Origin: Mycobacterium sp. HUMS_12744610
Lineage (GTDB): Bacteria > Actinomycetota > Actinomycetes > Mycobacteriales > Mycobacteriaceae
Reading direction: 5' to 3'
Assembly: GCF_041206865.1 (NCBI RefSeq)
Contig: NZ_JBGEDP010000001.1
Location: forward strand, 1,240,001-1,304,000
DNA: 64,000 nucleotides
Part shown: positions 48,588 to 64,000 of the stretch, one piece after another
Numbering within the stretch: position 1 is the first letter of the stretch
Layout of the letters: each line of letters begins with the position of its first letter
The notes under the pieces: model-generated
Told to the model about the DNA's origin: nothing
Database searches by the model: none
The model's input: the letters and a program-made list of their open reading frames with translations, nothing else
Translations under genes and position numbers: made by a program

Positions 48588-48688
48588 GTGCGTCACGTGC
48601 TCATCCTGCACGGGAGCCAAATTGTCTTGCCACCGGCACGAGGTCTTCTCGCGGAGTTGCGGTTACGCTATGGGCATTTAGCGCGCTG

Positions 48689-48865
48689 TCGACCCGCCCC
48701 GGCGCTCGCGCGTTCTACGACCAACACCGCGCAGCCGGCGACACTCACCATCAAGCCCTCCGCGCCCTAGGCAACCGCCTCGTCGGCATCCTGCACGGCT
48801 GCCTACGCCACAAACAGCCCTACAACGAACACACCGCCTGGGCACACCGCATGGCCGCCGCTTGA
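48689..48865 (+). pseudogene. C-terminal remnant of an IS110-family transposase
   Basis: Fifty-eight codons, TRPGARAFYDQHRAAGDTHH, then QALRALGNRLVGILHGCLRH and AWAHRMAAA to TGA. This is the conserved C-terminus of IS110/Transposase_20 proteins. Nothing of the N-terminal DEDD domain is present, and no inverted repeats are seen (IS110 elements lack them). In the same frame after the stop, DNA to 49027 has a codon-like look (SADGRDVAVPEGRLTFNETT) without a start, perhaps another gene fragment. The stretch 48866-49137 has nothing else recognisable. Confidence 0.78.
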
Positions 48866-49137
48866 CGAATTAGGGCCCTGGGATGTCTAGTCCGAGAGGA
48901 CGAAGAACCCAGCTCGGCGCGCTACTTCAGCGCTGACGGCCGCGACGTCGCGGTTCCGGAGGGGCGCCTGACCTTCAATGAGACCACCTGGCACCTAACC
49001 TACGTTGACGGCTCGAGTCGTTGCTGAGAGTGAAGTGGAGCCAGATCATTCGCGATCGCACATGAGCAGGGCGATCATGTTTTAACGTCCGGGCAATAGT
49101 GTTGGATCGCAACGCCAATGAACTTTTCACACGGCGG

Positions 49138-50310
49138 TCAGCCCCGCCGTCCGGCCCGTTCGGCGAACGCGTCGAGTGCAGCGAGCACTGCAGGAGAACG
49201 CCACACGCGGTTGCGGGGCCCGCTGGTCGTCTCGACGAGGATTCCCGCCTCGGTGAGCGGGTTGAGGTAGCGGTGAGCGTTGGTGGACCCGATGCCCAGC
49301 TCGTGCGCGAGTAGGGCAGCGTTGACGACCGGGCGGCGGGTCAACAAATCAGCGACCTTCCACACCGCCGAGTCGGACCGCGCCGTGATCACGTCGTTCC
49401 AGGTTTCGCGGATATCGCGAATGTCGGCGACCAGCTGACGCCCGTTCGCGATAGCCAGGACGCTGGCCTGTGAGAAGCGCTCGACAATCGGCGCGGCGTC
49501 ACCGTCGCGGTAGGTGGTCAGCGCGGCGAAGTATGCGCCCGTGTCGGCCAGCAGCCCGGCCGAGACCGGCACCGTCACCTGGCGGGTCAAGCCTTTGTTG
49601 CGCAGCATGGCTTGTACCAGTGCGCGGCCCGTGCGTCCGTTCCCGTCGGTGAAGGGGTGAATGGTCTCGAACTGTGCATGGGCCACCGCGATCTGCGGCA
49701 GTGCGGGAACGTCGGCGCGCTGCGCGAAGGCGATCAAGTCGTCAATCGCGCCGGGGACCAGCTCGTGGCGCGGGCCGACGAATGTCGCGCCGATGGGGGT
49801 GGAGCCGCCGCCGATCCACACTGGCTCGGTACGGAATTCGCCTTGTGTATGGCGTGGCTCGTTGGCCATCAACGCGTGGTGCATCGCCAGGATGGCGTCG
49901 GCGTCAACAGTGTCGGACAGGGCGACCGCTGCTTGCATCGCAGCGGTGTTGGCGACGATCATCTGAGCGTTGCGCTTGGCCCTGCCGCCGGGCAGCTCGG
50001 CCTCGGCGATAGCGCGGGCTGATGCGGTCAGGTTCTCGATCTGCGAGCTGGCGGCGGACTCTGACCGCAGCAACACGGCGGCAAGCGGCGCGATATCGCC
50101 TCCGAGTTCGGCGTCGAAGCGCGTGATCTCGCGGCTGGCGGATTCGGCTTCTGCGAGCATGGACGGCGGCAGGTCCAGGATCAGCTCGGCAATGTTGGCC
50201 GGCACGGCAGGGTGGTAGGTGCCGTACTTCGGCAGCGCCGCGCTCGCGTACCGCGTCCCCTGTGGTTCCCAACGAACGTCCTCGTAGGTGATGGGGCGAA
50301 GTGAAGTCAC
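49138..50310 (-). CDS. Fic (AMP-transferase-like) protein with N-terminal inhibitory motif and C-terminal winged helix
   Basis: A 390-residue Fic-domain protein. SSQIEN (S88-xxx-E92-N93) before the domain is the auto-inhibitory motif ([ST]xxxE[GN]) of class II Fic proteins. HPFTDGNGRTGR at 218-229 is the catalytic loop with all key residues, so it is probably active in transferring AMP (or another nucleotide monophosphate) from a nucleotide onto target proteins. The C-terminal ~80 residues (WKVADLLTRRPVVNAALLAH, then STNAHRYLNPLTEAGILVET) form a winged helix that could bind its own operator. The start is GTG 50310. It stands alone with no separate antitoxin, as is usual for this class. Confidence 0.93.
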   Translation of the reverse strand: MTSLRPITYEDVRWEPQGTRYASAALPKYGTYHPAVPANIAELILDLPPSMLAEAESASREITRFDAELGGDIAPLAAVLLRSESAASSQIENLTASARAIAEAELPGGRAKRNAQMIVANTAAMQAAVALSDTVDADAILAMHHALMANEPRHTQGEFRTEPVWIGGGSTPIGATFVGPRHELVPGAIDDLIAFAQRADVPALPQIAVAHAQFETIHPFTDGNGRTGRALVQAMLRNKGLTRQVTVPVSAGLLADTGAYFAALTTYRDGDAAPIVERFSQASVLAIANGRQLVADIRDIRETWNDVITARSDSAVWKVADLLTRRPVVNAALLAHELGIGSTNAHRYLNPLTEAGILVETTSGPRNRVWRSPAVLAALDAFAERAGRRG

Positions 50311-50320
50311 TGCTGCAGTC

Positions 50321-50350
50321 TAACCTCACTTATACGACTAAGTGAAGTTA
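50321..50350. promoter_or_regulatory. Inverted-repeat operator upstream of the Fic gene, with extra half-sites
   Basis: Left arm TAACCTCACTTA (50321-50332) and right arm TAAGTGAAGTTA (50339-50350) are inverted with one mismatch, spacer TACGAC. The same half-site recurs at 50363-50373 (GACTTCACTTA) and, in the other orientation, at 50298-50308 (GAAGTGAAGTC), which covers the GTG start codon. Four half-sites around one start point to autoregulation, probably by the winged helix of the Fic protein. An IS end lies directly next to the third half-site. Confidence 0.75.
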
Positions 50351-50392
50351 ATAGCGGCGGGTGACTTCACTTAGGGCCTGCGACAAAATAAT

Positions 50393-51167
50393 CTAGGTGG
50401 TGTTCGGGCGTGTCGGGTGCACGGTGTAGTTCCACTCGCCGTGGAAGTCGTGGCGTGTGATCGGTAGGGCGTCAACGTTTTTGGCGGTGTAGTTGATGCC
50501 GGTGGGGTACTGTTCGGTGTCGAGGACGCAGTGCACGGTCAGTCCGGTGGTTGTGGTGGTGTTGCTGATCAGGTCGACGATCATGCGGTGGCTGCGCAGC
50601 GGGCGTCCGCGCCAGTTCATGGTGATCTGGGAGAACAGCCGGTGTTCGATCTTGTTCCACTTGCTGGTGCCCGGGGGGAGGTGGCAGACGGTGATGGCCA
50701 GCCCGGTCTCGGCGGCCAGCTTGGCCAGTTCGATTTTCCAGGCGCGCAGCCGGTAGCCGTTGGAGCCGCCGCCGTCGGCGCAGATCAACAGCTTCTGCGC
50801 GTGTGGGTAGCGGCGTCGGCCGATGCTGTCCCACCACGAGCGCAGGGTCGCCACGGCGAACGCGGCGGTGTCGTGGTCGGTGCCCACCGTCACCCAGCCG
50901 GTGTTGGTGGCCACGTCGTAGACGCCGTACGGGATCGCCTTGCCGAGCTCTTTGTCCATGAAGTCGTGCACGTTGGTCGGCACCGGCGAGCCCTTGGGCT
51001 GGTACTCACGGCCACCGTTGCTGAACTCACCGACCAGCTCTTTCTTTTTCGTGTCCACCGAGATCACCGGCTGACCAGCGGCGATATGCTCACCGACGCA
51101 CCGGTTGAGGTAGCCGAATTGGGCGTCGCGATCCTCGTGCTGACGGCCCTCGGAGCCTGTCACGATT
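50393..51167 (-). pseudogene. ISAzo13-family transposase, N-terminally truncated by an IS256 element
   Basis: About 258 codons of the C-terminal part: EGRQHEDRDAQFGYLNRCVG, ISVDTKKKELVGEF (first Asp), ICADGGGSNGYRLRAWK (second Asp), HLPPGTSKWNKIEHRLFSQI (Glu), ending RHDFHGEWNYTVHP. This is the Rhodopirellula-type DDE transposase of ISAzo13. The N-terminal part is missing where the IS256 end begins at 51168, so the element is inactive. The other end of the old IS is near 50374, next to the Fic operator. No remaining N-terminal portion is found on the far side of the IS256. Confidence 0.87.
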
Positions 51168-52555
51168 TCTGTGTAAGTCAGAGGTGATTTGACTACGAGT
51201 TGTATTCTAGCACAATGGGATTCGCCCAGGGAATAGTCTGGCGAGTGTGTTGAGCGCCACAGTCCAGTTGTGCGTTCCAGTACCCGAATAGCCTCCTCTC
51301 TCGCTGGAGATGTTGCGCAGCCCGAGGTACAGCAACTTCATCGCGGCGTCCTTGTCCGTGAAATGACCACGGTTCTTGGTGATCTTGCGCAACTGGAAGT
51401 TGATCGACTCGATCGCATTGGTGGTGTAGACGATCTTGCGCAACTCCACCGGATAGTCCAGGAACGGAACGAATTCCCCCCAGGCGTTGTGCCACACGTC
51501 AATTGCACCCGGATATTGGGCGCCGAATTGCTGGTCGAACTCCTTGAGTGCGAGTTCGGCTCCATCGACGGTCGGCGCACTGTAGATCGCCCGCATCGCG
51601 GTGGCGACCTTCTTGCGGTCCTTATAAGACACGAAGCGCATCGCATTCCTAATGACGTGCACGACGCAGGTCTGCACCACGGTATCGGGATAGATCGAGC
51701 GGATCGCATCAGGCAGACCGGTCAGCCCGTCGCAGCAGGCGATGAGGATGTCGCGCACCCCGCGGTTGCGCAGGTCGATGACGACCTTCTGCCAGAACTT
51801 CGCCCCCTCGGAGTCCTGGATCCAGCAGCCCAAGGCGTGTTTGCGGCCCTCCAGATCCACGCCAATGGCCAAATAGGCGACCTTGGTGGTGATGACCCCG
51901 TTGTCGCCGATCCGCAGCCGCAGCCCATCGATGTAGAGGATCGGGTAGACCTCATCGAGCGGGCGGGCCTGCCAGGCCTTGATCTCATCGACCACCACCT
52001 CGGTGATATTGGAGATCAACTCCCGCGACACCGACGCCCCATAGACCTCCTGCAGGTGGGCTTCGATATCGCGGGTGGTCATTCCCCGTGAATACAGCGA
52101 CAACACCACCGAATTGATGTTGTTGAGCCGGCGGGTCTTCTTCGGCACAATCGCCGGCTCAAACGAGCCGTTGCGATCACGCGGCGCATCGATCTGCACC
52201 GGGCCGTTGACGGTGGTCACCGTTTTCGGCGTGGTGCCGTTGCGCGAATTTCCCGATCCGCGTCCGGCCGGATCGCCGGCCTCATAGCCCAGATGGTGGG
52301 TTAGCTCCGCATTCAGCGCCCGCTCCAGCACGGCCTTAGTCAGCTGGTTCAGCAAACCGTCCGCGCCGTCGATCGGGGTCCCGGTCTTCACCGCATCCTT
52401 AATCAACGAGTCCAGCGTCTCTTCGGTGAACATCTCGGCCAGCCGCCGCGCCGCGGTCGTCTCCTCAGCCGGCATCTGCATGGTCTTGGTCACAAAACAC
52501 TCCTTCTGTCCGCCCAACGGCGGTCCGATGATGGACCACCCCGGACTTACACAGA
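51168..52555. mobile_element. IS256-family element (first copy), without target duplication
   Basis: Terminal inverted repeats are TCTGTGTAAGTC at 51168-51179 and GACTTACACAGA at 52544-52555; imperfect pairing continues inward (AGAGGTG versus CGGGGTG). One transposase gene lies inside. The flanks (GTCACGATT on the left and TGGAATGAC on the right) do not match, so no 8-9 base target duplication is seen. The left flank belongs to an ISAzo13 gene and the right to an ISL3 gene, so the element sits at a junction of two different elements, probably after recombination or deletion. Confidence 0.88.
51207..52493 (-). CDS. IS256-family transposase (first copy)
   Basis: A 428-residue mutator-type DDE transposase. 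YILYIDGLRLRIGDNG (first Asp), LIACCDGLTGLPDAI (second Asp) and TTNAIESINFQLRKITKNR (Glu with the N-x-x-E-S pattern) form the active site. NSRNGTTPKTVTTVNGPVQI and RDRNGSFEPAIVPKKTRR are N-terminal DNA-binding features of the family. GTG 52493 is the start, with AAGGAG upstream; the open frame to 52712 crosses the IS end and is not real. It appears intact. Confidence 0.92.
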   Translation of the reverse strand: MTKTMQMPAEETTAARRLAEMFTEETLDSLIKDAVKTGTPIDGADGLLNQLTKAVLERALNAELTHHLGYEAGDPAGRGSGNSRNGTTPKTVTTVNGPVQIDAPRDRNGSFEPAIVPKKTRRLNNINSVVLSLYSRGMTTRDIEAHLQEVYGASVSRELISNITEVVVDEIKAWQARPLDEVYPILYIDGLRLRIGDNGVITTKVAYLAIGVDLEGRKHALGCWIQDSEGAKFWQKVVIDLRNRGVRDILIACCDGLTGLPDAIRSIYPDTVVQTCVVHVIRNAMRFVSYKDRKKVATAMRAIYSAPTVDGAELALKEFDQQFGAQYPGAIDVWHNAWGEFVPFLDYPVELRKIVYTTNAIESINFQLRKITKNRGHFTDKDAAMKLLYLGLRNISSERGGYSGTGTHNWTVALNTLARLFPGRIPLC

Positions 52556-53015
52556 TGGAATGACACGCCCCCGCGCCGGGATCACCGATCGGCACGCCAT
52601 GTGGGCGACCCGCAAGAACCCGGCTGACCTGTCCTGCGAGCAGCGCACCAGCCTCGCTAAGATCGCCGACACCAACCGCACCCTCTACCGGGCGTATCTG
52701 CTCAAAGAGCAACTACGCGAGGTGTTTCGGGTCAAGGGCACCCACGGGCGGCAGCTGCTGGCCGGCTGGCTGTCGTGGGCGTCGCACTCACGCATCCCCG
52801 AGTTCGCCGCGCTGGCCCGCAGCATCCGCCGCTACCGCGACCTCATCTGGAACACGCTCGATCACGGCCTGTCCAACGCCCGATCCGAAGCCACCAACAC
52901 CCACCTGCGGGCATTAACCAAACGCGCCTACGGATTCCACAGCCCAGACGCACTCATCGCCATGGCCATGCTCACCCGAGGCGGCCTTTGCCCAGCACTA
53001 CCCGGACGGAAATGA
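52556..53015 (+). pseudogene. ISL3-family transposase, C-terminal fragment
   Basis: About 150 residues of an ISL3 (IS1096-like) transposase: MWATRKNPADLSCEQRTSLA, YRAYLLKEQLREVFRVKGTH, HGLSNARSEATNTHLRALTK (with the last catalytic Glu) and RAYGFHSPDALIAMAMLTRG. It starts exactly at the right end of the IS256 copy; the N-terminal part with the two Asp residues is absent. ISL3 stop at 53013-53015. The following 53016-53133 has nothing recognisable apart from CTTAGCTGAAAGCTCGGGCG. Confidence 0.87.
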
Positions 53016-53133
53016 CCCACTACAACGTCAGTAGATCCTTAGCTGAAAGCTCGGGCGGTTTTCTTTAAGGTCACGCCGGGGGCACGGCGCGTCGTCCATT
53101 ATCGGGAAAACCACTATCTAACTGCAGAAATAG

Positions 53134-53209
53134 TGGTGCCCCCGGCAGGATTCGAACCTGCGACACCGGCTTTAGGAGAGCCGTGCTCTATCCCCTGAGC
53201 TACGAGGGC
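53134..53209 (-). tRNA. tRNA-Arg (anticodon CCU)
   Basis: Read on the minus strand, GCCCTCG (acceptor 5') pairs with CGGGGGC at the 3' end, followed by discriminator A and encoded CCA. The D arm contains TAGCTCAGGGGATAGAGCA, the anticodon stem is CGGCT/AGCCG with loop CTCCTAA, so the anticodon is CCU (reads AGG), and the T arm has GGTTCGAATCC. All stems form. It sits beside an integrase-type island, and tRNA genes are common attachment sites, although no second copy of its 3' end is seen in the window. Confidence 0.97.
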
Positions 53210-53415
53210 GCGGGACGTCCTTGAATACCTGACTAAAACCCTGGCGGGGCGCGATTTCAGCGGCTTCTTGGACATCCTGGTGCCGTGGTCGGCGTCGTGA
53301 CGGTGGGCGTCGTGTTGTCGAGTCCGGCGGGTGTGAGTGTATCGGGCATGACAAAGGCCACGCGACGCGTGGGCGTCCGTGGGCAGCTTGGGGTCGCTCG
53401 TCGTGGTGGCCGGCG

Positions 53416-54837
53416 TTAGGCTGCTCGCTCGTCTGGGTGTCGTCGTCGGTGCAGGTAGGCCGCTATTGCGTTGCGGCCCAGGCCGAATCCGAGCATGACG
53501 GTCAGTTGGCGAACAGCCGAGTAGGCGATCATGCGCCCGCCGTAGAGGGTGCGGTCGAGAGTGTTATTGAGACTTTCGGAGTCTTCGCGCCACCCGTAGC
53601 AGCGGTCGTAGACGCTGTCGCCGTCCTCGGTTTTGACGTGCTGGCGCAGGTGCTCTGCCCGATTGTAGCCACGCTTGCGGTCGTCGTCGGTGGTGTCAAT
53701 GCGCTCTCGCTGCACGGTGCCGCACGTGGGAGTCGCGAACTCGATGTACCACCGGTGATTTCCGTCGGCGTTGCGGCGCGAGTAGATCTTGGCGGTTGGG
53801 CAGGGTTGCAGGTGCGTGTCGCCGGTGTCGAGGATCTGGCGTTGGCAGATGCGCCCGTCTTGAGTCCATAGGTTGTGAACCTCGCCGCAGGCACAGTCGA
53901 GGCGGGCCAGTGCGGTGGGTTTTCGGGTGCCGTCGTGGATGGGTGAGAGCACGGTCAGGCCGTGTTTCATGGCGTGGTCGATGTGTTTGCCGCGGAAGGC
54001 GCCGTCGTAGCAGACGCCGTCGCAGCGGACGTCGGAGTCGGCGATGACGCGGTCGATCATGTCGACGGCGATGCGGGCTTCGCCGCCGTAGCCTTTGCCC
54101 GCCGGCACGGCGTCGACATCGAGGATGACGCGGTTGTTGCGGATGGCGTTGGGGCGGGTGGCGAGCATGGTGAACTTGGTGCCGTAGCGGAACTCCCTGT
54201 CGTTTTCGCCGTTTTGCACTTCGATGCCGGCGTGGACGCGGCGTCCACCCTCTTCGGCCCACCGGTCGGCGGTGGCCTTACGGACGGGCGCGGCCACCAC
54301 GGTGCCATCGCCGACGACGTATTGTCCCCGGGCGGGATTGGTGTGCGAGACAGGGGCGGTGTGGGCCAGGCAGCCGAGTTCGGTGGCCAGCCGGCGGGCG
54401 AGCGGCCGAAACGCGGTGAGCAGCTCGTTGGCGTGGTCGTCGAGCAACCGTTGGGCGTAGTTGTGGTGCCATCGCTGCGGTGGGCGGCGCTGCGCGGTGG
54501 GGGCTCCGTGTTTGGCGGCGTGCTGGCGGATCGAGCGCCAGTAGGCGGGGTGGGCCATGGCGCGGGCGGCCTTGCTGTGTGAGCCGAGCACCCCGGTCAA
54601 TGCTTTGTGCAGCACGTGCACCCACGGTGGGTAGTGCGGGCGCCGGCCGGGAGTTCCGGGCTCGTGGACGGGCAGGATCGCAGCCAGGTGGTAAATGACC
54701 TCGTGTGAGGCGACGGCTTCGATGGTGTCGATTTCGAGCAGCGTGAGATCGGTCGGGGTTTCGAGCTTGCCCAGCCGGCGCTGCTCGATGCGCTGGGCCC
54801 CATAGGCCGGCGTCGGCGTGGCGGTGTCGCGCTTCAT
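53416..54837 (-). CDS. DDE transposase-like protein in a coupled pair with a recombinase-like protein
   Basis: A 473-residue protein. The middle and C-terminal parts look like an RNase H-fold transposase: QYVVGDGTVVAAPVRK (first Asp), GVCYDGAFRGKHIDHAM (second Asp) and REDSESLNNTLDRTLYGGRM (Glu) could form a DDE triad. DCACGEVHNLWTQDGRICQR has two cysteines of a likely zinc-binding insertion. The N-terminal part (HEVIYHLAAILPVHEPGTPG) is unknown. ATG 54837 overlaps the stop of the recombinase-like gene (ATGA), so the pair is coupled. No inverted repeats are seen around it, so it is not an ordinary IS. I do not recognise a named family. Confidence 0.7.
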   Translation of the reverse strand: MKRDTATPTPAYGAQRIEQRRLGKLETPTDLTLLEIDTIEAVASHEVIYHLAAILPVHEPGTPGRRPHYPPWVHVLHKALTGVLGSHSKAARAMAHPAYWRSIRQHAAKHGAPTAQRRPPQRWHHNYAQRLLDDHANELLTAFRPLARRLATELGCLAHTAPVSHTNPARGQYVVGDGTVVAAPVRKATADRWAEEGGRRVHAGIEVQNGENDREFRYGTKFTMLATRPNAIRNNRVILDVDAVPAGKGYGGEARIAVDMIDRVIADSDVRCDGVCYDGAFRGKHIDHAMKHGLTVLSPIHDGTRKPTALARLDCACGEVHNLWTQDGRICQRQILDTGDTHLQPCPTAKIYSRRNADGNHRWYIEFATPTCGTVQRERIDTTDDDRKRGYNRAEHLRQHVKTEDGDSVYDRCYGWREDSESLNNTLDRTLYGGRMIAYSAVRQLTVMLGFGLGRNAIAAYLHRRRHPDERAA

Positions 54838-55829
54838 GGTGCGCCGCCGGGGTCGTGCCAGGCGTAGCCGATGAGGGCGGCGGTGGTGTCCAGCGAGGGC
54901 GAGCCGATAAGGCGGGCGGCGTCCTCGATGCGGCCGGTGCGCTCGAACTCGCGGCGCGCGGCGTAGGCGGTCAGCGATGCGGGTCGTACCCCGCTGTCGT
55001 CGGATAGTCCCGCGCGGGTGAGGATGTCGCGCACGGTCACGCACACTCGGGCCTGTTTGTGGGCGTCGCTGCCGTGGGCGCCGGTGCACAGCACCGGTGG
55101 GTGGCCGCCGCGAGGAAGCGGTTCGGTGAGGTGGGCGGCGCGTTCGACGAGCACCCGCACCGACCAGGTGTCCAGGGGCAGCAGCCGGGCCCGGTGCTTG
55201 GCTGATCCGTGCGCCCACACGGTGGCGGCGCGGTGGTCGAGGTCGGCGGCGCTGATGTGACCGAGTTCGCCGGTGTGCGCCCCCGCAAGCAGCAGTGCGG
55301 CGGTGGCGGCGTGGCGGGTTGGGGTGGCGTGTTCGGAGAACAGCCGCACCAGCGCGGCTTCGTCATCGGTGAGTGGGCGCCGGGCCGAGGACCGACGTGC
55401 TGGGACGTCGATGTCGGTGGTGGGGTCGTCGAGGGTTAGCCGCAGCCGGCGGGCGGTGCGGTAGAACGCGCGCAGCGCGGCGCGGCGGTTGTGCATGGTC
55501 GCGACCGCCGCAGCCGACACGGTCCCGTGTCGGGTGCGGCCTTTGGCGGCAACAAATGTCGCGACCAACACTCGATCGACGCCGGCCAGGGTAGTGACGT
55601 CATGCGCGGCGGCGAACCGGGCGAAACGGCGGGCGAGCAAGCCGAACTTGTCGAGCGTCTGCACCGACAGCGCGCCGTCGGCGATCCACGCCCCGGTCAC
55701 TGCCGCCACCGCCGCGCTCAAGCTGCCCTCAGCCATGGCCGGCCCCCACCCCAGCGGCAACAGCAACTGCTGCCCGGCGCTCACCACGGGTCCGCGCCGT
55801 TGGTGAAACGTTGGCCATGCCGCCTCCAT
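54834..55829 (-). CDS. Tyrosine-recombinase-like protein, catalytic residues apparently lost
   Basis: A 331-residue protein with the layout of a phage integrase: SAM-like N-terminal domain (QTLDKFGLLARRFARFAAAH, about 56-150) and a C-terminal domain with RRPLTDDEAALVRLFSEH, then AGAHTGELGHISAADL and SAKHRARLLPLDTWSV. Compared by eye with integrases, the first Arg of the TGLR box is replaced (TGEL), the HxxR box reads LTAYAA, and the LGH His is IGS; only the Lys-containing turn and the final Tyr (TTAALIGYAW) remain. It is probably inactive in cleavage. ATG 55829 is five bases from the palindrome; ATG 55736 is an alternative. It heads the operon with the DDE-like gene. Confidence 0.72.
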   Translation of the reverse strand: MEAAWPTFHQRRGPVVSAGQQLLLPLGWGPAMAEGSLSAAVAAVTGAWIADGALSVQTLDKFGLLARRFARFAAAHDVTTLAGVDRVLVATFVAAKGRTRHGTVSAAAVATMHNRRAALRAFYRTARRLRLTLDDPTTDIDVPARRSSARRPLTDDEAALVRLFSEHATPTRHAATAALLLAGAHTGELGHISAADLDHRAATVWAHGSAKHRARLLPLDTWSVRVLVERAAHLTEPLPRGGHPPVLCTGAHGSDAHKQARVCVTVRDILTRAGLSDDSGVRPASLTAYAARREFERTGRIEDAARLIGSPSLDTTAALIGYAWHDPGGAP

Positions 55830-55833
55830 CCAT

Positions 55834-55855
55834 AATGGTGCATGTATGCACCATT
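55834..55855. promoter_or_regulatory. Perfect 22-bp palindromic operator in the divergent promoter
   Basis: Arms AATGGTGCAT and ATGCACCATT are perfect inverses around GT. It lies five bases before the recombinase-like ATG and 61 bases before the HTH gene at 55916, in the only intergenic region between the divergent genes. It is most likely the binding site of one of the two HTH proteins encoded next to it. I saw no second copy in the window. Confidence 0.8.
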
Positions 55856-55915
55856 CGAGCAGGGGGGTCCGACAGCCTGCCTGAATGCGGCGGGGCTGCG
55901 GGATAGGGTGGGCTG

Positions 55916-56272
55916 GTGGCGCGCAGCAACGGCGATAAGCCGCCGGTGGCTTACGTGGCCAGAGGCCTCTGGCCTAACGCCGCCATGACACCTGATGCCC
56001 CGCCGTCGGCGTCGGCCGCGCAGCATCTGGCCCGCGCGCTGGGGGCGGCGATGGCCGAGACCGCTACCGGTCAGCGGGCACTGGCTGTGGTCAGCGGGGT
56101 GGCACACACCACCATCGGGCGGATCCTGGCCGGCACCGTGCTGTGCGACATCGGCTCGCTGGCTCGCCTGGAACACGCCCTGGGCCGGCGGCTGTGGCCC
56201 GAACACCCAGACGCCGCCACCCACCGCCGCCTCGGCGGGAAACCGCACGCTCACCATCGCGATGCCGTCTGA
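55916..56272 (+). CDS. HTH (XRE-like) regulator
   Basis: A 118-residue protein with one helix-turn-helix of the Cro/C1 type at about 35-85: AAQHLARALGAAMAETATGQ, ALAVVSGVAHTTIGRILAGT, then IGSLARLEHALGRRLWPE. The pattern of recognition helix HTTIGRILAG is typical. The GTG at 55916 is the upstream start; ATG 55985 (MTPDAPPSA) is as likely. It is divergent from the recombinase-like gene and so a prime candidate to bind the palindrome. Confidence 0.75.
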   Translation: MARSNGDKPPVAYVARGLWPNAAMTPDAPPSASAAQHLARALGAAMAETATGQRALAVVSGVAHTTIGRILAGTVLCDIGSLARLEHALGRRLWPEHPDAATHRRLGGKPHAHHRDAV

Positions 56273-56415
56273 CACATGAGGCAGATTACAGAATCGTTAT
56301 TCGGTTGGGGTGTTACCGCGACCGCGTGTTGCGCTTGACTCGTGTTCCACGCGCCGCAACAATGGGTTTCGGGCGCACGCGCGCGTCAGGGTAGCGAGGG
56401 AGTGGGTGTAACGCT

Positions 56416-57021
56416 ATGGCAAAGACCAGCAAGTCGCTGATCGACCTGATCGAGATCGCCGCCACACGGCACGGCGGGGCATCCGGACGCCGCCTGGCCG
56501 AGCTGGCGCAGCGCGCCGGCCACGATATCTCGCACGCCACGCTGAATCGCCTGCGGCAGGGCACCTACGCCACCCGCCCGTCAGACGCATCGATCCGGGC
56601 GATCGCCTTCCTGGCCGACGTGTCGGAGAACGTCGCGTTCGCGGCGGCGGGGGTGAGCGCCCCGGCTGCTGCGGTGTATCAGGCTCCGGCCGAAGCGCAG
56701 CGGATGACGACCCGGCAGCGTAAGGCGGTCGACGAGCTGATCCGCGCGTTCGCCGCCGACGACAAACCGGCACCCGCCGCGGGGCTCGACTTTGGCCGGC
56801 TGCTGGCCGCGCGAGAGCGCCTCACTACCGCGTTGACCGCCGGGGGTGAGCACGTCGCGGCCGCCGGGCTGGTCGAGGCGGCGCAAGAGGCGGTGGCCGG
56901 CATCGACGAGGTGATCGACGCGTTGTTCGCCGCGGCCAGCGACCAGGACCCAGCCGATGATGAATCGCTTTCGGGTTTCACGGGATTGAGCACAGATCAC
57001 CCCGCCCGCGCGGTCGGGTAG
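56416..57021 (+). CDS. HTH (XRE-like) protein heading a three-gene cassette
   Basis: A 201-residue protein. Residues 1-75 form an HTH (SGRRLAELAQRAGHDISHAT, LNRLRQGTYATRPSDASIRA) followed by FLADVSENVAFAAAG, typical of XRE repressors. The rest is helical and acidic, with QRKAVDELIRAFAADDKPAP and DEVIDALFAAASDQDPADDE. The helical C-terminal half could contact a partner, as in antitoxins; that is inference. It is 144 bases after the first HTH gene and 34 bases before the next. Confidence 0.78.
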   Translation: MAKTSKSLIDLIEIAATRHGGASGRRLAELAQRAGHDISHATLNRLRQGTYATRPSDASIRAIAFLADVSENVAFAAAGVSAPAAAVYQAPAEAQRMTTRQRKAVDELIRAFAADDKPAPAAGLDFGRLLAARERLTTALTAGGEHVAAAGLVEAAQEAVAGIDEVIDALFAAASDQDPADDESLSGFTGLSTDHPARAVG

Positions 57022-57055
57022 AGCCAACAGGCCGTCCGGCAGGAGGGGCAATGGT

Positions 57056-57604
57056 GTGATTCCGGAGTTGGATCCATCCGGTGGGCTACTGCCACCCGGT
57101 CGCTACCGGGCAAGCCGGGCCGAGGTCTACCAGCGATTCGTCAACGGGCGCGGCGAGCACCGGCAGCACCTATGGCGGGACTGGGAGTCGGCGACAAGCC
57201 TGCTTTGTCGCCACGTGCACGTCAACGCCTGCTGGCTCTACGGACGGTTCCTGTCCGAGGAGCCCGAACCCGAGGTCGTGTCGTGTGTGTATTGGGCCGA
57301 GGACCTGGAGTTGTCCAAAGCCCACCTGGACCCGGCCAGCGCCAACATCCTGCGGGCGTTCGCGCAGCGCGCTACGCTGCGTCGCGTTGTCGGAGTGCGG
57401 GTGGATACTTCGGTCGTCGCCTGGCACTGCCAACCCGACACCGAGATTGAGGACCGCTACCTGCCCCAATACTTGGAGCGACGAGGCCGGGTCGATGATT
57501 ACCTGCAGCGAATGCGTTCTGGCCCAACGGGTTCGCCGCCCGTACGCGAGGACGCGCTGCCGCGCTGCGGATATGTGGAGGTGATCGTCGATGACTACCA
57601 GTGA
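57056..57604 (+). CDS. DUF6932-like protein with degenerate nucleotidyltransferase motif
   Basis: A 182-residue protein. IPELDPSGGLLPPGRYRASR at the start, WLYGRFLSEEPEPEVVSCVY in the middle (about 63-82) and CGYVEVIVDDYQ at the end resemble the DUF6932 family, which has a nucleotidyltransferase-like fold with GSFV..KPEP.D.D. Here the Gly-Ser becomes Gly-Arg and the Asp-x-Asp is missing (VVSCV), so catalysis by the usual mechanism is unlikely. GTG 57056 has AGGAGGGG seven bases before it. Its 3' end overlaps the next gene by 14 bases, so the two are coupled. Role unknown. Confidence 0.65.
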   Translation: MIPELDPSGGLLPPGRYRASRAEVYQRFVNGRGEHRQHLWRDWESATSLLCRHVHVNACWLYGRFLSEEPEPEVVSCVYWAEDLELSKAHLDPASANILRAFAQRATLRRVVGVRVDTSVVAWHCQPDTEIEDRYLPQYLERRGRVDDYLQRMRSGPTGSPPVREDALPRCGYVEVIVDDYQ

Positions 57605-58571
57605 GGATGACCTCGACCGGATGCAGGCGGCGATCCTGGCGGCGATGACCGACGACGACACACCAGCCTGGAGTACTCCTGATGACTTATCCCGCATCAG
57701 CGTCGAGGCCCTGATCGCCGACGATAGCCTCGGGCGAACCCTGCCCTCGCGTGGCAACATCCGCCTCAGCGGCGACGGCGTGACCGGGGCCTCGGCGCGG
57801 GTCTCCGAAGTCGCCCGCGTGATGGCCGGATTTCAACGCCTGGCCACCGCGGTCGGGGCAGCCCAACAAGGCGATAAAGCGCTGGGACGCCAACCCAACG
57901 CCGACGTGCGCCGGCGCACCGACCTGCTGCTCAGAGCCTCACCCGGGCCTGGATCGATCATCTTGACCCTCACCCCGGCGACCTCACCGATCACCGAAAC
58001 CGGCCACGCCGGCGGCAAAGTCGGCATGTTCGCCGAACTGGAAACCGACGATCAGTTGCTCGACACCGCAATCGGTGCGGCCATCGATGTGTTCAGCGCC
58101 GGCAACGACATCGGGCCCAGCCCAGCGCAATCCCGGTTCGTCCAACAGCTCGCCGAGATGGGACCACGTACCGCCTCGGCCCTACGCGACCTGTCCAAAA
58201 CACTGGACCGCGCCGGATTCGACGTCGAAATCGACTGGCAGCAACCATCCCGCGCCACCCGCCGCGTCACCGTGTCGGCAACGGCCGCCGCCTACATCGC
58301 CGCCACCGTCGAAAACGCCAACCTCGACGAACAACCCGTGCAAATCATCGGCGAATACCTCACCGTCAGCGCGGTCTCGTCCTGGCTCATTCAGCAAGAC
58401 GACGGAGAGACCGTGACGGTCAAACTCGGCCGCATCGGCAAGGACCAAGCGCGCGGCCTGGCAGTCGGTGATCGCGTCCGCATCCACGCACTCATGAAAA
58501 TCGAAACAACCCCCGGCGGCGCCGTCAAAACCACCTACACCGCCCACGCCGTCTACCGGCTCAACGACTAA
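57591..58571 (+). CDS. Unknown protein, last gene of the HTH / DUF6932-like cassette
   Basis: A 326-residue soluble protein with no family I recognise. The N-terminal ~75 residues are acidic and disordered-looking (SEDDLDRMQAAILAAMTDDD). The middle contains SPAQSRFVQQLAEMGPRTAS and ALRDLSKTLDRAGFDVEIDW (helical). The C-terminal ~110 residues look like alternating strands: RRVTVSATAAAYIAATVENA, PVQIIGEYLTVSAVSSWLIQ, GRIGKDQARGLAVGDRVRIH, which suggests a small beta-barrel. It starts inside the end of the DUF6932-like gene (ATG 57591), so it is coupled. The IS256 element lies 36 bases after its stop. Confidence 0.75.
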   Translation: MTTSEDDLDRMQAAILAAMTDDDTPAWSTPDDLSRISVEALIADDSLGRTLPSRGNIRLSGDGVTGASARVSEVARVMAGFQRLATAVGAAQQGDKALGRQPNADVRRRTDLLLRASPGPGSIILTLTPATSPITETGHAGGKVGMFAELETDDQLLDTAIGAAIDVFSAGNDIGPSPAQSRFVQQLAEMGPRTASALRDLSKTLDRAGFDVEIDWQQPSRATRRVTVSATAAAYIAATVENANLDEQPVQIIGEYLTVSAVSSWLIQQDDGETVTVKLGRIGKDQARGLAVGDRVRIHALMKIETTPGGAVKTTYTAHAVYRLND

Positions 58572-58607
58572 AACTAAAACTGAGCTTCACAGGCGGCTTT
58601 CGACTCG

Positions 58608-59999
58608 GGGTCTGTAAGTTAAACGGTGTAACTCCTGAGGAAGAAGGAGAGCACTGTGACTGATGTGATTATCGGTGACACCGTCGTTGAGTCGGCCGAC
58701 GAGGAGGCCGTGGTGCGGCTGGACGACCTGGACCAGCAACTGGTCGGGCAGTTGGTGGATCGGGCCCGCTCGCAGGGGCTGCAGCTGACCGGCGAGGGCG
58801 GGCTGCTGGCCCAGCTGACCAAGACGATCATCGAGTCCGCAGCCGAGGGCGAGCTCGATGAGCATCTCGGCTACGCCAAACATGACCCGGCCGGCCGTGA
58901 CGGCGGCAACTCCCGCAACGGCAGCCGCCCCAAGACCGTGCTCACCGACATCGGGCCGGTCGAGGTCGAGATGCCGCGGGACCGCGAGGGCACGTTCGAG
59001 CCGCAGATCGTGCGCAAGCGCCAGCGCCGGCTGTCCGGGATTGAGTCGCTGGTGATCTCGTTGTCGGCCAAGGGATTGACCCATGGCGAGATCTGCGCGC
59101 ACCTGGCCGAGGTGTACGGCGCGCAGGTGTCCAAGCAGACCATCTCCACGATCACCGACCGGGTGATCGAGGGCATGAGCGAGTGGCAGAACCGGCCGCT
59201 GGATGCGGTGTATCCGGTGGTGTTCATCGACGCGATCAACGTCAAGATCCGTGAGGGCAACGTGGCCAACCGGCCGATCTACACCGCGCTGGGTGTCACC
59301 GTGGATGGCACCCGCGACGTGCTGGGGCTGTGGGCCGGTGAGCACGGCGACGGGGAGGGGTCCAAGTATTGGCTGCGGGTCTTGTCGGAGATCAAGAACA
59401 GAGGGGTCCAAGACGTCTGCATCGTGGTGTGCGACGGTCTGAAGGGGCTGCCCGACGCCATCGCCAACGTGTGGCCGGCCGCGATCACCCAGACCTGCGT
59501 TATTCACTTGCTGCGCAACAGTTTCCGCTACACCTCGAAGAGGGACTGGGCCGCGATCGCCAAAGACCTCAAGCTGGTCTACACCGCGGCCAGTGAGTCC
59601 GCGGCGCTGGACGCGTTCGCCGCGTTCGCCGAGAAATGGGAACAGCGCTACCCGGCGATCATCAAACTGTGGGAGAACGCGTGGGCCGAGTTCGTGCCGT
59701 TCCTGGCCTTCGACAAGGAAATCCGCGGCGTGATCTGCACGACCAACAGCGTCGAAAGCCTCAATTCGCGCATCCGCAGGGCGGTCAACGCGCGTGGACA
59801 CTTCCCGACCGAGCAGGCCGCGCTCAAATGCGTCTACCTGGCGATCATGAGCCTCGACCCCACCGGCAAAGGCCGACAACGCTGGATGAACCGATGGAAG
59901 GCACCCCTCAACGCCTTCGAGATCGCCTTCCCCGGACGACTGACCCAAGGCCGAAAGTAACACTACGACAACCAGTTACACCGTTAACTTGACAGTCTC
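58608..59999. mobile_element. Intact IS256-family element with 8-bp target duplication
   Basis: The ends are GGGTCTGTAAGTTAAACGGT on the left and, reading inward from the right, GAGACTGTCAAGTTAACGGT, imperfect inverted repeats. The 8-base target duplication TCGACTCG is at 58600-58607 and 60000-60007. It carries one complete transposase gene. The sequence differs from the first IS256 copy, so it is a different element. The duplication and intact gene suggest recent transposition, into the gap between the cassette and the mmpL gene. Confidence 0.93.
58656..59960 (+). CDS. IS256-family transposase (second, different element)
   Basis: A 434-residue mutator-type DDE transposase. PVVFIDAINVKIREGNV holds the first Asp, IVVCDGLKGLPDAIANV the second Asp and CTTNSVESLNSRIRRAVNAR the Glu. 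NSRNGSRPKTVLTDIGPVEV and RDREGTFEPQIVRKRQRR resemble the N-terminal part of the first copy in pattern but differ in sequence. GTG 58656 is preceded by AAGAAGGAG. Intact. Confidence 0.93.
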   Translation: MTDVIIGDTVVESADEEAVVRLDDLDQQLVGQLVDRARSQGLQLTGEGGLLAQLTKTIIESAAEGELDEHLGYAKHDPAGRDGGNSRNGSRPKTVLTDIGPVEVEMPRDREGTFEPQIVRKRQRRLSGIESLVISLSAKGLTHGEICAHLAEVYGAQVSKQTISTITDRVIEGMSEWQNRPLDAVYPVVFIDAINVKIREGNVANRPIYTALGVTVDGTRDVLGLWAGEHGDGEGSKYWLRVLSEIKNRGVQDVCIVVCDGLKGLPDAIANVWPAAITQTCVIHLLRNSFRYTSKRDWAAIAKDLKLVYTAASESAALDAFAAFAEKWEQRYPAIIKLWENAWAEFVPFLAFDKEIRGVICTTNSVESLNSRIRRAVNARGHFPTEQAALKCVYLAIMSLDPTGKGRQRWMNRWKAPLNAFEIAFPGRLTQGRK

Positions 60000-60106
60000 T
60001 CGACTCGTCCCTCGTGGCCGCAGGCACCCCTTCGACCGTTTGCGGCTGCGGCAGATGCCGACGTTGTTGGGGGGCGTTATCCGACGGGCCGGCGCTGCGA
60101 TGCAGT

Positions 60107-63100
60107 TCACCGCGGGCGGTGGCCGGGCGGGTGCGGGTGCGGGGGTGTGGTCGAGGTCGGTGTGTTGGGCCACCAGCTGGCTTGGCGTAGGAGTGTGGCG
60201 ATGGCGGGGACGGTGAGGGTGCGCACGAGGAAGGTGTCGAGCAGCAGTCCGCAGCCGATGATGAATCCGGCTTGGACCATGATGGCCACCGAGCCGACCA
60301 TCAGGCCAAACATGCTGGCGGCGAAGATGAGTCCCGCTGAGGTGATGACCGAGCCGGTGTTGGCAACGGTACGTAGTACGCCGACGCGGATATTGCGTCC
60401 TGATTCTTCACGCAGCCGCGACACGAGAAGCATGTTGTAGTCGGCGCCGACCGCGACCAGGATGATGAATGCCACCAGGGGCACCGGCCAGGCGATGGGA
60501 TAGCCCAGCCCCCATTGGAATAGAAGCACGCCGATGCCCAGTGCGGCGAGGTAGTTGAGCACCACGGTGCCCAGCAGGTAGAGCGGGGCCAGCACAGCGC
60601 GCAGCAGCAGTACCAGGATGAGCCCGACGATGAGCAGGGTAGCGATGGCCAGTTGGGCGAAGTCGGCGCGCAGCAGGCGTTGGATGTCGGAGTTGACGGC
60701 GGGAAAGCCGGCGACTGACACGGTGGCGTGGGCTAACGCGGTGTTGGGCCGGCCGGCGTTGGCGATGTCGGTGATCTGGTGGGCAAGGTGGATTGCTTCG
60801 GCGCTGTAGGGGTCGAAATTGGATTCGATGGCAAAGCGCGCGGCTTTACCGTCGGGGGAGACAAATTGCTTTGCCACGTCGGCGAATTGGCGGTTTTCGA
60901 AGACATCGGCGGGTAGGTAGAAGCCGCTGGAGGAATCTGAGCGGGCGCTGGCCCGGGCTGAGTTTTGCAGTTGGATGGCGATCTGGCTCATCCCGGAAAG
61001 CATGTCGATGTTGCTGTCGGCCAGGGTGTGCACGCCGGTCGCCAGCGCTTGGGCGCCCGAGGCAAGCTGGCCGACGCCGTCCTGGAGGCGCCGTATGTTG
61101 CCGGCAAGGTCGGCGGGGTCCCCGAGGGTTCCGAAGGCTTTGTCCAGTGCGCCGACGGCTGACTGGACGTTGATGAGGGTGCCGGTGACGGTGGCATTGG
61201 TGGCGGGGTTGTAGCGGTCGCCGAGATCGGCGACCTCGGTGAAGAACCCATTGTCACGCAGGCTCACCAGAATCTGGACTTGGTCACGGATCTGGGTGCA
61301 CTGCGTTGTGGTGGCACACCACGGGGAGCTGTTGAGGGCACCGGCGAGGGGGTCGAGGACGGCGATGGCGTTTTGAGCTTGGTCGGCCATAGGCCGCAGC
61401 CCGGGGCCGGATTGGATGGCTTGATCGACGGCGGGGGCGGTGGCCGAAAGCTGTTGCAGCAAAGGCCGCAACTGCTGGGCCGGGGTGCCGGCAGACTGGG
61501 CCTGGGTGAGTATTCCGGTTAGCGGAGTCAGGGCGGTGCGCAGGGTGGTGTCGAGTTGGGCCAGGCCCTCCGCGAGTTGGCCGGCGCCGTTGGTGAGTTT
61601 GGTGAGGTCGTCTTTTCGGGTGTTGCCGTCGGCGACGGCGCGGGCCATCTTGTCGCCGATCTGAGCGTTTTGCCATGAAAGTTGGGCTTGCTCGAGGCGG
61701 GTTCCGGTGGGGCGGGTGACTCCGGATACTTTGGTGACGCCGGGGATTTGCGCGATGCGGGAGGCCATTTCGTCGAGGTCGGCCAGCCCCTTTCCAGTGC
61801 GCATGTCGGTCGGGTTTTCCACGAGCAGGAATTCGGTGACGATGCTGTCTTTGCGGAAGTGGCGGTCCAGCAGGCGGTAGCCCTGGTTGCTGGCGGTGCC
61901 GGCCGGCTGGCCTTTGCGGTCGTCGTAGCTGATCTTCATGGTCGCCGCGACCGCGGTCAGGGCCAGCAGGATGACCAGGCTGGTGATCAACAGCGGTACC
62001 GGCCGGCGGACCACCGCGACTGCAACGCTGTTCCAGTAGCGCCGGGTGCGGTCAGATTTGGGTTCGCCGATGCCTCTTTTGGCGGCCAGCGCCAGCACCG
62101 GCGGCAGCAGCGTGATGGTGGCTGCGAACCCGACCAGTACGGCGACCGCGCAGGCCGGACCGAGGGCGGCGAACACGCTCAGGTGGGCGAACACCATGGT
62201 CAAGAAGGCGAACGCCACGGTGGCCGCCGAGGCCATGATCACCCGGCCGATGCTGGCGGTGGCGGCGATGACGGCTTGATCGGCGGGAACCTGGGCGCGG
62301 CGCTGCTCGTGGTATCGGCTGATCAGAAACACCGTGTAGTCGGTGCCCGCGCCGAGCAGGATTGCGGTCATAAACGCCACAGTGAACTGGGAGACAGGCA
62401 TGCCGATTTCGCCGAGCGCGGACAGTACACCGCGCCCAACGGCCAGGCTTATCCCGATCACCAGCAGCGGCAGCAGGGCGGTGAACACCGACCGGTAGAC
62501 GATCAGCAAGATCAACGCGATCAGCCCGGCCGTTGCGATCGAGATCAGCAGTAGATCGTGCTCGGCAGAGGAGATCATGTCACTGAACGTCGTCGGCGGA
62601 CCCGTCACATACGCGGTGGTCGACGAGCCCGCGAACACCTCTGCGACGAGGGCGCGCACCGCCTGCACCGATGCGGCCGCGGTGGGATCGCCCCACGTGC
62701 CGGCCACACCCACCGGCAGGTACCACGCCTTGCCGTCGCGGCTGACCGCCTGAGACGCGGTGACCGGATCGGCCAGCAAGTCTTTCACCAGCAAGATATG
62801 GCCGGTGTCGGCGCGCAGCCGCGCCAGCAGCTGGTCGTAGCGCTGCCGCGCCGAAGGCGTCAACCCCGCGGGGTCTTCCATCGCAACGAACACCACCGTC
62901 TTGGAACCCTGTTCACCGAAGGCCGCGCTCATCCGGTCCACTGTTTGCAACGACGGAACGTCTCGCGGGAGAAGGTTCACCGATTGCTCACGCACCACCG
63001 TCTCCAGCTGGGGAAACAGCATCGCCAGCAGCACGGCCGTACCCAGCCACGCCCCGATCGCCAGCGCTTTGTGCCGAACGGTGAACCCGGCCAGGGCCGC

Positions 63101-63205
63101 TAACCGCCTGCTGTATTCGCGTGGCCTCGCCACATCGGCAGGCGGTGCGGGACGCGACAAAAGCGCAGGCCCCGCACCCGAGCCCGTTGAAGGAGCGTCG
63201 GTCAT
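60107..63205 (-). CDS. MmpL-family RND transporter
   Basis: A 1032-residue membrane transporter of the mycobacterial MmpL type, which exports lipids or drugs through the inner membrane using the proton gradient. There are about 12 membrane segments, with two large extracytoplasmic loops (about 60-210 and 430-780). GAGTDYTVFLISRYHEQ and VGADYNMLLVSRLREESG are the two conserved repeats in the membrane core with proton-relay Asp-Tyr pairs. No MmpS partner is next to it, so the substrate cannot be predicted. ATG 63205 is preceded by GGGGGAA; two operators lie just upstream. The tail after 1010 is His/Pro-rich. Confidence 0.92.
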   Translation of the reverse strand: MTDAPSTGSGAGPALLSRPAPPADVARPREYSRRLAALAGFTVRHKALAIGAWLGTAVLLAMLFPQLETVVREQSVNLLPRDVPSLQTVDRMSAAFGEQGSKTVVFVAMEDPAGLTPSARQRYDQLLARLRADTGHILLVKDLLADPVTASQAVSRDGKAWYLPVGVAGTWGDPTAAASVQAVRALVAEVFAGSSTTAYVTGPPTTFSDMISSAEHDLLLISIATAGLIALILLIVYRSVFTALLPLLVIGISLAVGRGVLSALGEIGMPVSQFTVAFMTAILLGAGTDYTVFLISRYHEQRRAQVPADQAVIAATASIGRVIMASAATVAFAFLTMVFAHLSVFAALGPACAVAVLVGFAATITLLPPVLALAAKRGIGEPKSDRTRRYWNSVAVAVVRRPVPLLITSLVILLALTAVAATMKISYDDRKGQPAGTASNQGYRLLDRHFRKDSIVTEFLLVENPTDMRTGKGLADLDEMASRIAQIPGVTKVSGVTRPTGTRLEQAQLSWQNAQIGDKMARAVADGNTRKDDLTKLTNGAGQLAEGLAQLDTTLRTALTPLTGILTQAQSAGTPAQQLRPLLQQLSATAPAVDQAIQSGPGLRPMADQAQNAIAVLDPLAGALNSSPWCATTTQCTQIRDQVQILVSLRDNGFFTEVADLGDRYNPATNATVTGTLINVQSAVGALDKAFGTLGDPADLAGNIRRLQDGVGQLASGAQALATGVHTLADSNIDMLSGMSQIAIQLQNSARASARSDSSSGFYLPADVFENRQFADVAKQFVSPDGKAARFAIESNFDPYSAEAIHLAHQITDIANAGRPNTALAHATVSVAGFPAVNSDIQRLLRADFAQLAIATLLIVGLILVLLLRAVLAPLYLLGTVVLNYLAALGIGVLLFQWGLGYPIAWPVPLVAFIILVAVGADYNMLLVSRLREESGRNIRVGVLRTVANTGSVITSAGLIFAASMFGLMVGSVAIMVQAGFIIGCGLLLDTFLVRTLTVPAIATLLRQASWWPNTPTSTTPPHPHPPGHRPR

Positions 63206-63215
63206 GTATTCCCCC

Positions 63216-63256
63216 GTAGCGAGACTATCGGTATCGCTACGCTACTAGAAGTAGCG
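63216..63256. promoter_or_regulatory. Two TetR-type operators between mmpL and tetR
   Basis: Site A: GTAGCGA (63216-63222) and TCGCTAC (63234-63240), 11-base spacer. Site B: CGCTACT (63240-63246), AGA, AGTAGCG (63250-63256), perfect 7-base arms. The two share base 63240 and the core GTAGCG. They start 11 bases before the mmpL ATG and probably cover its promoter. The divergent regulator at 63407 is the likely binder. Confidence 0.75.
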
Positions 63257-63406
63257 CAGCATGCAAGGTGGAGACGCCGTGAGCGGTCGCGAGGCCACGA
63301 TCCACCCATCCGGGAGGGCTGATGTGCAGTCCAGAAATGCTGCCGGCCGGTTGATCCATAGAGCGAAGTGCCTGGCTAGACGGCCTCGCGGTTTATCCTA
63401 CCGACC

Positions 63407-64000
63407 ATGCCCAGCGAATCTATGCGAATGTCGTTTCGCCGGCACATGCGCGAACAAGTGTTGGACGCTGCGCGGGCCCTGACGATCGAGAAGGGCTGGG
63501 AGCGAGTACGGGTGAGTGAAGTCGCCGAGCTGGTGGGTGTCTCTCGTCCGACGCTGTACAAGGAGTTCACCGACAAGAAAGGACTCGGCGACGCGCTGAT
63601 CGTCCGCGAAGGCGAGCAATTCTTGGATGGCGTTCGCGCGGTGCTCGAAGAGCATGCCCGCGACGCCGGTGCAGGCATCATGGCCGCCGTCCGCTACACC
63701 CTGGACGAGGCGGAGTCCAGCCCGTTGCTGAAAGCGGTACTGACCTCCAACCGGGGGACCGACGCCGGGCCCGGGTCGCCCGACACCGGGGTATTGCCGC
63801 TGCTGCCGACATCGGCGTCGCTGCTCGAGTTGTCCTCGGCAACGATGATCAAGTGGTTCATCGGCCATTTCCCGGGGCTCGACGCCCAGGATGTACGGGA
63901 TGTCGTCGACGCCTTGGTCCGGCTGACCGTCAGCCACCTGGTATTGCCCACTGACGACGCCGCAGCCACAGCGGGGCGTATTTCGCAGGTCGCGTTGCGG
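63407..64000 (+). CDS. TetR-family regulator, partial at the window end
   Basis: The first 198 codons of a TetR regulator; the frame is open at the window end. The HTH is at about 12-60: EQVLDAARALTIEKGWERVR, VSEVAELVGVSRPTLYKEFT, then DKKGLGDALIVREGEQFL. SRPTLYKEF is the typical recognition helix. The rest is a helical ligand domain. The ATG at 63407 is the start. It is divergent from mmpL with paired operators in between, so it probably represses mmpL. Confidence 0.9.
   Translation, partial: MPSESMRMSFRRHMREQVLDAARALTIEKGWERVRVSEVAELVGVSRPTLYKEFTDKKGLGDALIVREGEQFLDGVRAVLEEHARDAGAGIMAAVRYTLDEAESSPLLKAVLTSNRGTDAGPGSPDTGVLPLLPTSASLLELSSATMIKWFIGHFPGLDAQDVRDVVDALVRLTVSHLVLPTDDAAATAGRISQVALR

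Follow-up and report, generated by a model that had tools for sequence, protein, structure and literature searches.

The window analysed here is a 64,000-nucleotide stretch of the genome of Mycobacterium sp. HUMS_12744610 (contig NZ_JBGEDP010000001.1, positions 1,240,001 to 1,304,000), and our subject is a pair of minus-strand genes in it, P1 and P2. P1 encodes a protein with a tyrosine-recombinase fold and P2 a protein with a DDE transposase fold; their reading frames overlap by 4 bp (54834-54837), as a first-pass annotation of this DNA had noted. The pair lies beside a gene for tRNA-Arg(CCT), with an interrupted palindrome and a divergent helix-turn-helix (HTH) gene on its other side (Table 1). 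Judged from sequence comparison, P1 and P2 are the terminal genes of a large transposon. An open-access literature search found no description of a P1-P2 pair.

Table 1. Features of the P1-P2 locus in the window
Feature	Position	Strand	Basis or remark
tRNA-Arg(CCT), target gene, intact after insertion	53134..53209	-	ARAGORN
Target-site duplication, first copy	53203..53211	.	GCGCCCTCG on the - strand; second copy 86883-86891, outside the window
Transposon, part inside the window	53212..64000	.	Both ends and the duplication
Right (P2-proximal) terminus GGTTTTAGTCAGGTATTCAAGGACGTCCC	53212..53240	-	Single copy in this genome at <=3 mismatches
Outward TACACT, -10-like, towards the tRNA; proposed replacement promoter	53336..53341	-	Motif
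P2, Tn5-fold DDE transposase, 473 aa, D177/D278/E421	53416..54837	-	Fold and alignment
P1, tyrosine-recombinase fold without catalytic R-H-R-H, <=331 aa; proposed target selector	54834..55829	-	Fold and alignment
Palindrome with 10-bp arms, interrupted by a 2-nt centre; likely operator	55834..55855	.	Sequence
118-aa HTH (Cro/C1-like) regulator, divergent from P1	55916..56272	+	Family match
201-aa protein, weak HTH_26 match (E 0.18)	56416..57021	+	Whole or part in five compared mycobacterial elements
DUF6932 182-aa and 326-aa pair, accessory	57056..58571	+	Weakly like PADLOC PDC-M63A/B

Results

P1 and P2 and their linkage

P1 matches PRK00283 (NCBIfam) with an E value of 6.5e-9, under the family cut-off, and phrog_1 with an E value of 1.6e-11. 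XerA is the best Foldseek match, and residues 35-329 of the P1 model align to lambda Int, covering both the core-binding and the catalytic domain. Relatives begin about 15-20 residues downstream of the annotated P1 start, and no Pfam zinc finger match was found in P1. The database search scored 7993 candidates, and the alignment holds 128 sequences (the window protein, 120 of the 145 database matches and seven from examined loci). The full residue set of active tyrosine recombinases, R-K-H-R-H/W-Y, is not recovered: R, H, R and H are lost in nearly all 128 sequences. The ArgI position is R in 3 and H in 107; the HisII position is H in 1 and A or S in 113; the ArgII position is R in 4 and T in 115; and the HisIII position is H in none. 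By eye, the first-pass annotation had read the Arg, HxxR and LGH residues as lost and the Lys and Tyr as kept; the alignment bears this reading out and does not recover the full R-H-R-Y set, which would have refuted it. On the predicted model, P1 is a complete tyrosine-recombinase fold from which the catalytic R-H-R-H is absent across the family.

The fold of P2 matches Tn5 transposase over almost the entire chain, with a strand-rich insertion preceding the E, and Tn5 rather than TnsB is its nearest fold. From 7998 scored candidates we built an alignment of 57 sequences, restricted among database homologues to those of at least 390 aa. D177 and D278 are present in 57/57 and E421 in 56/57, in agreement with the D, D and E candidates picked earlier by eye, the triad being named from conservation within this alignment. 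The IS4/Tn5 signature is Y-x2-R-x3-E-x6-K (YREK), and Tn5 duplicates 9 bp of its target. In the P2 alignment A3, Y414 is nearly invariant and R417 and E421 are invariant, and the window protein has D at position 428. P2 resembles Tn5/IS4 in its fold, D-D-E, strand-rich insertion, Y-x2-R-x3-E and 9-bp duplication (see below), and differs in matching no curated family, in the K of YREK not seen in the window protein and in having P1 as a partner gene. The mycobacterial P1-P2 elements also differ from Tn5 in their short terminal repeats and in a large cargo without flanking insertion sequences (ISs). P2 gave no Pfam or NCBIfam match at E<=10, no PHROG match at E<=1 and no PDB sequence match at E<=10, which leaves it without a sequence link to solved transposases. 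Given the absence of a curated-family match and the incomplete signature, P2 was not filed as an IS4 member; from the fold, the triad and the 9-bp stagger we infer that it is a transposase. Between the second D and the E, C317, H321 and C372 are conserved (55/57, 56/57 and 56/57), which suggests that the insertion domain coordinates a metal.

Are the two genes rarely found together, as would speak against a coupled pair? They are not: P1 and P2 occur jointly in nearly all intact cases. In the family sample (401 genomes) P2 is full length in 5 and fragmentary in 3, and P1 is present in exactly those 5. In the class sample (374 genomes) P1 occurs in 11, of which 8 lie outside the family; P2 follows in 8/8, one of these with a broken P1. 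The phylum sample (296 genomes) gave 17 genomes with P2. Ten P2 neighbourhoods from that sample, which leave out 6 of the 16 other P2-positive genomes (all fragments), comprise five with P1 directly upstream, one contig that begins at P2 and four fragments or broken copies. P2 had no match among 50,697 phage records, and seven stretches of viral contigs that fit a pattern included no relative; a phage integration module was rejected on these results. A defence pair was also rejected, P1 and P2 being without a PADLOC match at E<=0.01.

Ends, target duplication and spread of the element

DNA homology to several other mycobacteria breaks at 53211-53212, next to the tRNA-Arg(CCT) gene; this P2-side terminus adjoins unrelated DNA in other genomes. 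With the flanks read past the window edge at 64000, the element spans 53212-86882 (33,671 bp; contig C1:1293212-1326882). It has short inverted ends, GGGA.../...TCCC, and is bordered on both sides by the 9-bp GCGCCCTCG, which takes in bases 1-7 of tRNA-Arg(CCT). The first-pass annotation had stated that no inverted repeats frame the pair. This holds for the two genes themselves, which nonetheless end a 33.7-kb element with short inverted ends and a 9-bp duplication. An IS with inverted repeats framing the two genes was rejected, as no long pair frames them and the true ends are far apart.

Both ends were traced for 11 elements of 9.7-44.1 kb, and the duplication is 9 bp in 10 of them and 8 bp in one. 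The 9-bp duplications are, besides GCGCCCTCG, CGACACTGG (icosiumassiliensis), CCGCCCTCG (hubeiense), CCGCCCCCG (MYC123), ACTGGAGAC (chlorophenolicum), CGTCCCACC (kansasii), CGCGGTGCC (neglectum), CGCCTCCGT (G658) and ACTGCGGCT (G669). Tandem stacking of elements at one site was observed, and the stacked 9.7-kb element, which is without P1-P2, has the 9-bp duplication CCGCCCCCG. For the shizuoka-1 insertion, and not for the one in the window, an empty site is provided by a plasmid of M. dioxanotrophicus that matches the right flank of that insertion at 99.9% identity across 3 kb; the site is one-sided because the contig stops before the left junction. As for an empty tRNA-Arg site for the present insertion, its left flank was matched beyond about 10 bases by no other genome among 98 of the genus. 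By eye, this flank (contig C1:1326892-1327041) resembles what is left of the right end of an earlier element inserted at this tRNA, which suggests repeated insertion.

The 44.1-kb element of M. chlorophenolicum is 99.99% identical over its full length to that on the M. kansasii plasmid pMK12478, and equally so, over the parts covered by contigs, to the copies in M. canariasense, M. tusciae, M. arupensis and M. neglectum, the last with 2.5 kb missing. Plasmid-borne copies are found on pMK12478, pMAC109a, pMyong1 and one M. intracellulare plasmid. The flanks of HKST and L025 have many genes in common with the pMK12478 backbone, and the flank of shizuoka-1 is plasmid by sequence identity. Copies away from tRNA genes are often on plasmids; the M. 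icosiumassiliensis copy looks chromosomal from the acyl-CoA carboxylase genes in its flank. The copies in M. chlorophenolicum, M. canariasense and M. tusciae likewise have flanks other than tRNA genes. Transposition of the element is well supported by these comparisons, namely by the defined ends, the 9-bp duplications, the one-sided empty site and the recent spread.

Insertion at tRNA 5' ends

All five full-length P2 loci of the family sample lie 5' of tRNA-Arg(CCT), on the tRNA strand. A scan of genome contigs gave 28 loci, 24 with a visible right flank. In 11 of these 24, tRNA-Arg(CCT) directly follows the right end; in another (L027), nine tRNA-derived bases are followed by the apparent left end of another element. 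Of 11 intact pairs that come from outside the family and have flanks of sufficient length, 9 have a same-strand tRNA gene 139-220 nt after P2 (Arg-CCT in 5, Lys-TTT in 2, Gly-CCC in 1 and Phe-GAA in 1). Where the ends are known, 1-3 bp separate the junction from the 5' end of the tRNA. The tRNA-Arg(CCT) portion of a query made from the joined flanks matched in 95 of 98 genus genomes, and the junction pattern (<=1 mismatch) was present in 25 of the 401 family genomes. Thirteen junction-pattern sites were examined by eye: eight look like element ends (L076-L080, L082, L092, L093), one of them with a P2 fragment nearby, and five do not. Across the genomes compared, the elements show a preference for tRNA 5' ends and a fixed orientation, with the P2 end facing the tRNA.

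Tyrosine integrases of tRNA islands recombine in the 3' part of the tRNA gene. P1 is like them in its lambda-Int fold, and its elements likewise use tRNA genes as sites; the P1 elements differ in the lost catalytic residues, the 5'-end insertion and the 9-bp duplications, and a classical 3'-end island was rejected on the position of the insertion. In L026 and L028, tRNA-Arg(CCT) is followed, on its side opposite the element and at a distance of about 5-10 kb, by DNA matching window positions 35317-42957. The corresponding gap in the window is about 10 kb (42957-53134), and therefore the 3' side of the tRNA gene also varies.

Control sequences and cargo

The palindrome between the divergent HTH gene and P1 had been described as a perfect one of 22 bp; it has in fact 10-bp arms around a non-complementary GT. 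Its core, GGTGC-N6-GCACC, stands at the same offset in 14/15 mycobacterial loci, the loci that the survey covered, and is absent from L097; as shuffled windows often give arms of 6-7 bp, the constant position alone counts. This recurrence makes it most likely that the HTH protein uses the palindrome as its operator. A second palindrome, perfect over 18 bp (GGCCAGAGGCCTCTGGCC), lies near the start of the HTH gene (about 55957-55974) and is also present in the near-identical L002 element.

At the right end, an outward TANNCT occurs in 17/23 ends versus 4.3 expected, and on the reverse strand in 1/23; the motif was picked after inspection and the 23 rows are related. It suggests that the element supplies a promoter to the tRNA gene. 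We propose a replacement promoter because the insertion cuts the tRNA from its upstream DNA, and such an element-borne promoter would also account for the fixed orientation.

Six core genes, including P1 and P2, are common to the mycobacterial elements; P1 and P2 alone of the six were found in the 13.5-kb G669 element, which agrees with P2 as the transposase. The 182-aa/326-aa pair resembles PADLOC PDC-M63A/B with E values of 3e-4 and 3e-7, had no homologue seen in the 44-kb element and is possibly defence cargo. The smallest element with both ends and P1-P2, that of G669 (13.5 kb), carries among its cargo the R and S subunits of a type I restriction system (L122:15438-19855). Inside the window's element, inverted copies of an IS256-like mutator-type transposase (58656-59960, plus strand, and, beyond the window, 67273-68577 of the same length, minus strand) bracket MMPL, P450 and acyl-CoA dehydrogenase genes, and L002, an otherwise near-identical element, has a different arrangement of this segment. 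Also beyond the window, the cargo includes two convergent genes, one for a Phage_integrase protein of 790 aa and one for a protein with an rve domain (L052:6187-8559, 8527-9465).

Discussion

P1 and P2 would together be responsible for transposition in a family of large, single-unit DNA elements of Actinomycetota. P2 would cut at the GGGA.../...TCCC ends and join them to the target with a 9-bp stagger, a chemistry predicted from the fold and the triad, and P1, by binding a tRNA gene, would be the agent that brings P2 to the 5' end of that gene in the orientation seen, the P2 side towards the tRNA. The outward -10-like sequence at the P2-proximal end would probably replace the severed tRNA promoter, and in the mycobacterial elements P1-P2 are probably under the control of the divergent HTH protein, acting at the palindrome. 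Insertions away from tRNA genes, several of them on plasmids, may be untargeted or follow a second pathway. We consider it likely that P2 transposes and that P1 is a dead recombinase selecting tRNA genes. On balance we also favour, with more reserve, the fuller proposal that a Tn5-fold transposase is steered to tRNA 5' ends without an AAA+/TniQ adaptor, that the integrase fold was independently recruited as a selector, that change in P1 retargets the element between tRNAs and that the element end gives the tRNA a new promoter. The first-pass annotation had suggested that the dead recombinase targets DNA for the DDE protein in a transposition or defence module; the ends, duplications and spread uphold transposition, the evidence for targeting by P1 is indirect, and the defence part finds no support in the PADLOC comparison.

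Then, which of the two proteins chooses the target? Given P2 identity, pairs of elements at the same tRNA were 3.4 points more identical in P1 (one-sided label permutation, p=0.036), in a small test that ignores phylogeny and takes in 12 elements with a known tRNA, those without a tRNA and most mycobacterial rows being left out; given P1 identity, P2 showed no same-target effect in these 12 elements (p=0.86). In the sharpest case, L163 (Arg-CCT) and L165 (Phe-GAA) are 61.7% identical in P2 and 42.8% in P1, and L162 and L163, which have the same target, are 61.2% identical in P2 and 51.8% in P1. In the trees, P1 joins L162 with L163 and P2, in a tree drawn without L001 and L002, joins L163 with L165. 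From the dead recombinase fold, the linkage, the precise tRNA insertion, this test and the TnsF precedent described below, we infer, with less certainty than transposition, that P1 is the target selector.

The size and one-sidedness of the test weigh against this interpretation, and so do several observations. In 12/24 genome-contig loci the right flank has neither a tRNA nor tRNA-derived bases, so that targeting is not obligatory, and no tRNA follows P2 in L113 and L166, two of the 11 intact pairs. G857, which also has an intact pair, holds a second P2 relative with no P1 match beside it, and in pMyong1 (L097) P1 is annotated as two short open reading frames (ORFs) next to a full-length P2. 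The Lys is retained in 108/128 and the Tyr in 89/128 P1 sequences. The duplication of HKST, GGTCAGAG, is 8 bp, not 9, and the left ends of AH16 (81 kb searched), G472, G635 and G548 were not found in the sequence examined.

P1 could instead be a regulator, with P2 alone picking the target. Its recombinase fold is shared with MrpR/YopR/SroF, DNA-binding phage regulators; unlike theirs, the P1 gene shares an operon with a transposase gene at the end of a transposon, and a regulatory role for P1 would be consistent with its fold. The divergent HTH gene accounts better for the palindrome, P1 stands beside P2 in G669, where no homologue of that HTH protein was found, and in G658, where the homologue is near the other end, and in the small test it is P1, not P2, that tracks the tRNA used. 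We regard this explanation as doubtful. A structural role for P1 in the transpososome, in end synapsis or DNA bending, with the tRNA preference coming from P2, host factors or features of tRNA-gene DNA, would suit P1-P2 elements whose ends lie 13-44 kb apart and whose right ends show, by eye, sub-repeats in tandem, possible sites for P1. A feature generic to tRNAs is insufficient, however, when all 11 tRNA-adjacent genome-contig loci use Arg-CCT, and the correlation of P1 identity with the tRNA target also argues against this role, which we think improbable.

The integrase and rve proteins carried by the window's element raise the further idea that a cargo recombinase moves an ordinary integrative element and that P1-P2 are passengers. 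Their genes are not among the ORFs of this element matched in at least two others, and of the six core genes P1 and P2 alone were found in both G658 and G669. Duplications of 9 bp at unrelated sites, which occur here, are a signature of DDE transposases and not of tyrosine recombinases. These results disfavour the idea, which we regard as very improbable.

In Tn6022-like Tn7 transposons, insertion is targeted to comM by TnsF, a tyrosine recombinase that has been inactivated and that depends on TnsA, B, C and TniQ. TnsF combines zinc fingers at its N terminus with two core-binding-like domains and a partial catalytic domain, and a plasmid route via tnsE has been suggested (Faure et al. 2023, PMC10293859). 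As described there, a DDE transposon uses an inactivated tyrosine recombinase to pick a conserved chromosomal gene, which resembles the arrangement proposed here for P1-P2. P1 has the whole core-binding and catalytic fold, whereas the catalytic domain of TnsF is partial and accompanied by zinc fingers; P1-P2 elements have a Tn5-type transposase, tRNA 5' ends and 9-bp duplications in place of TnsB machinery and comM. No Pfam match to TnsB, TnsC or TniQ was found among the six core proteins, the cargo ORFs not all having been scanned and the rest of the genome not scanned. By this analogy, P1-P2 would share the logic of TnsF and not its machinery.

If this is true, integrases have been turned into target finders for DDE transposons at least twice, in unrelated transposase lineages, in the second case apparently with no multi-protein apparatus of the Tn7 kind. 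A site-directed system of two proteins with a large cargo can be tested directly, and its natural variants at different tRNAs offer a route to mapping how target choice is encoded. For the mycobacteria, it would account for a recurrent island site at tRNA-Arg(CCT) and for islands of 30-44 kb that move between chromosomes and plasmids.
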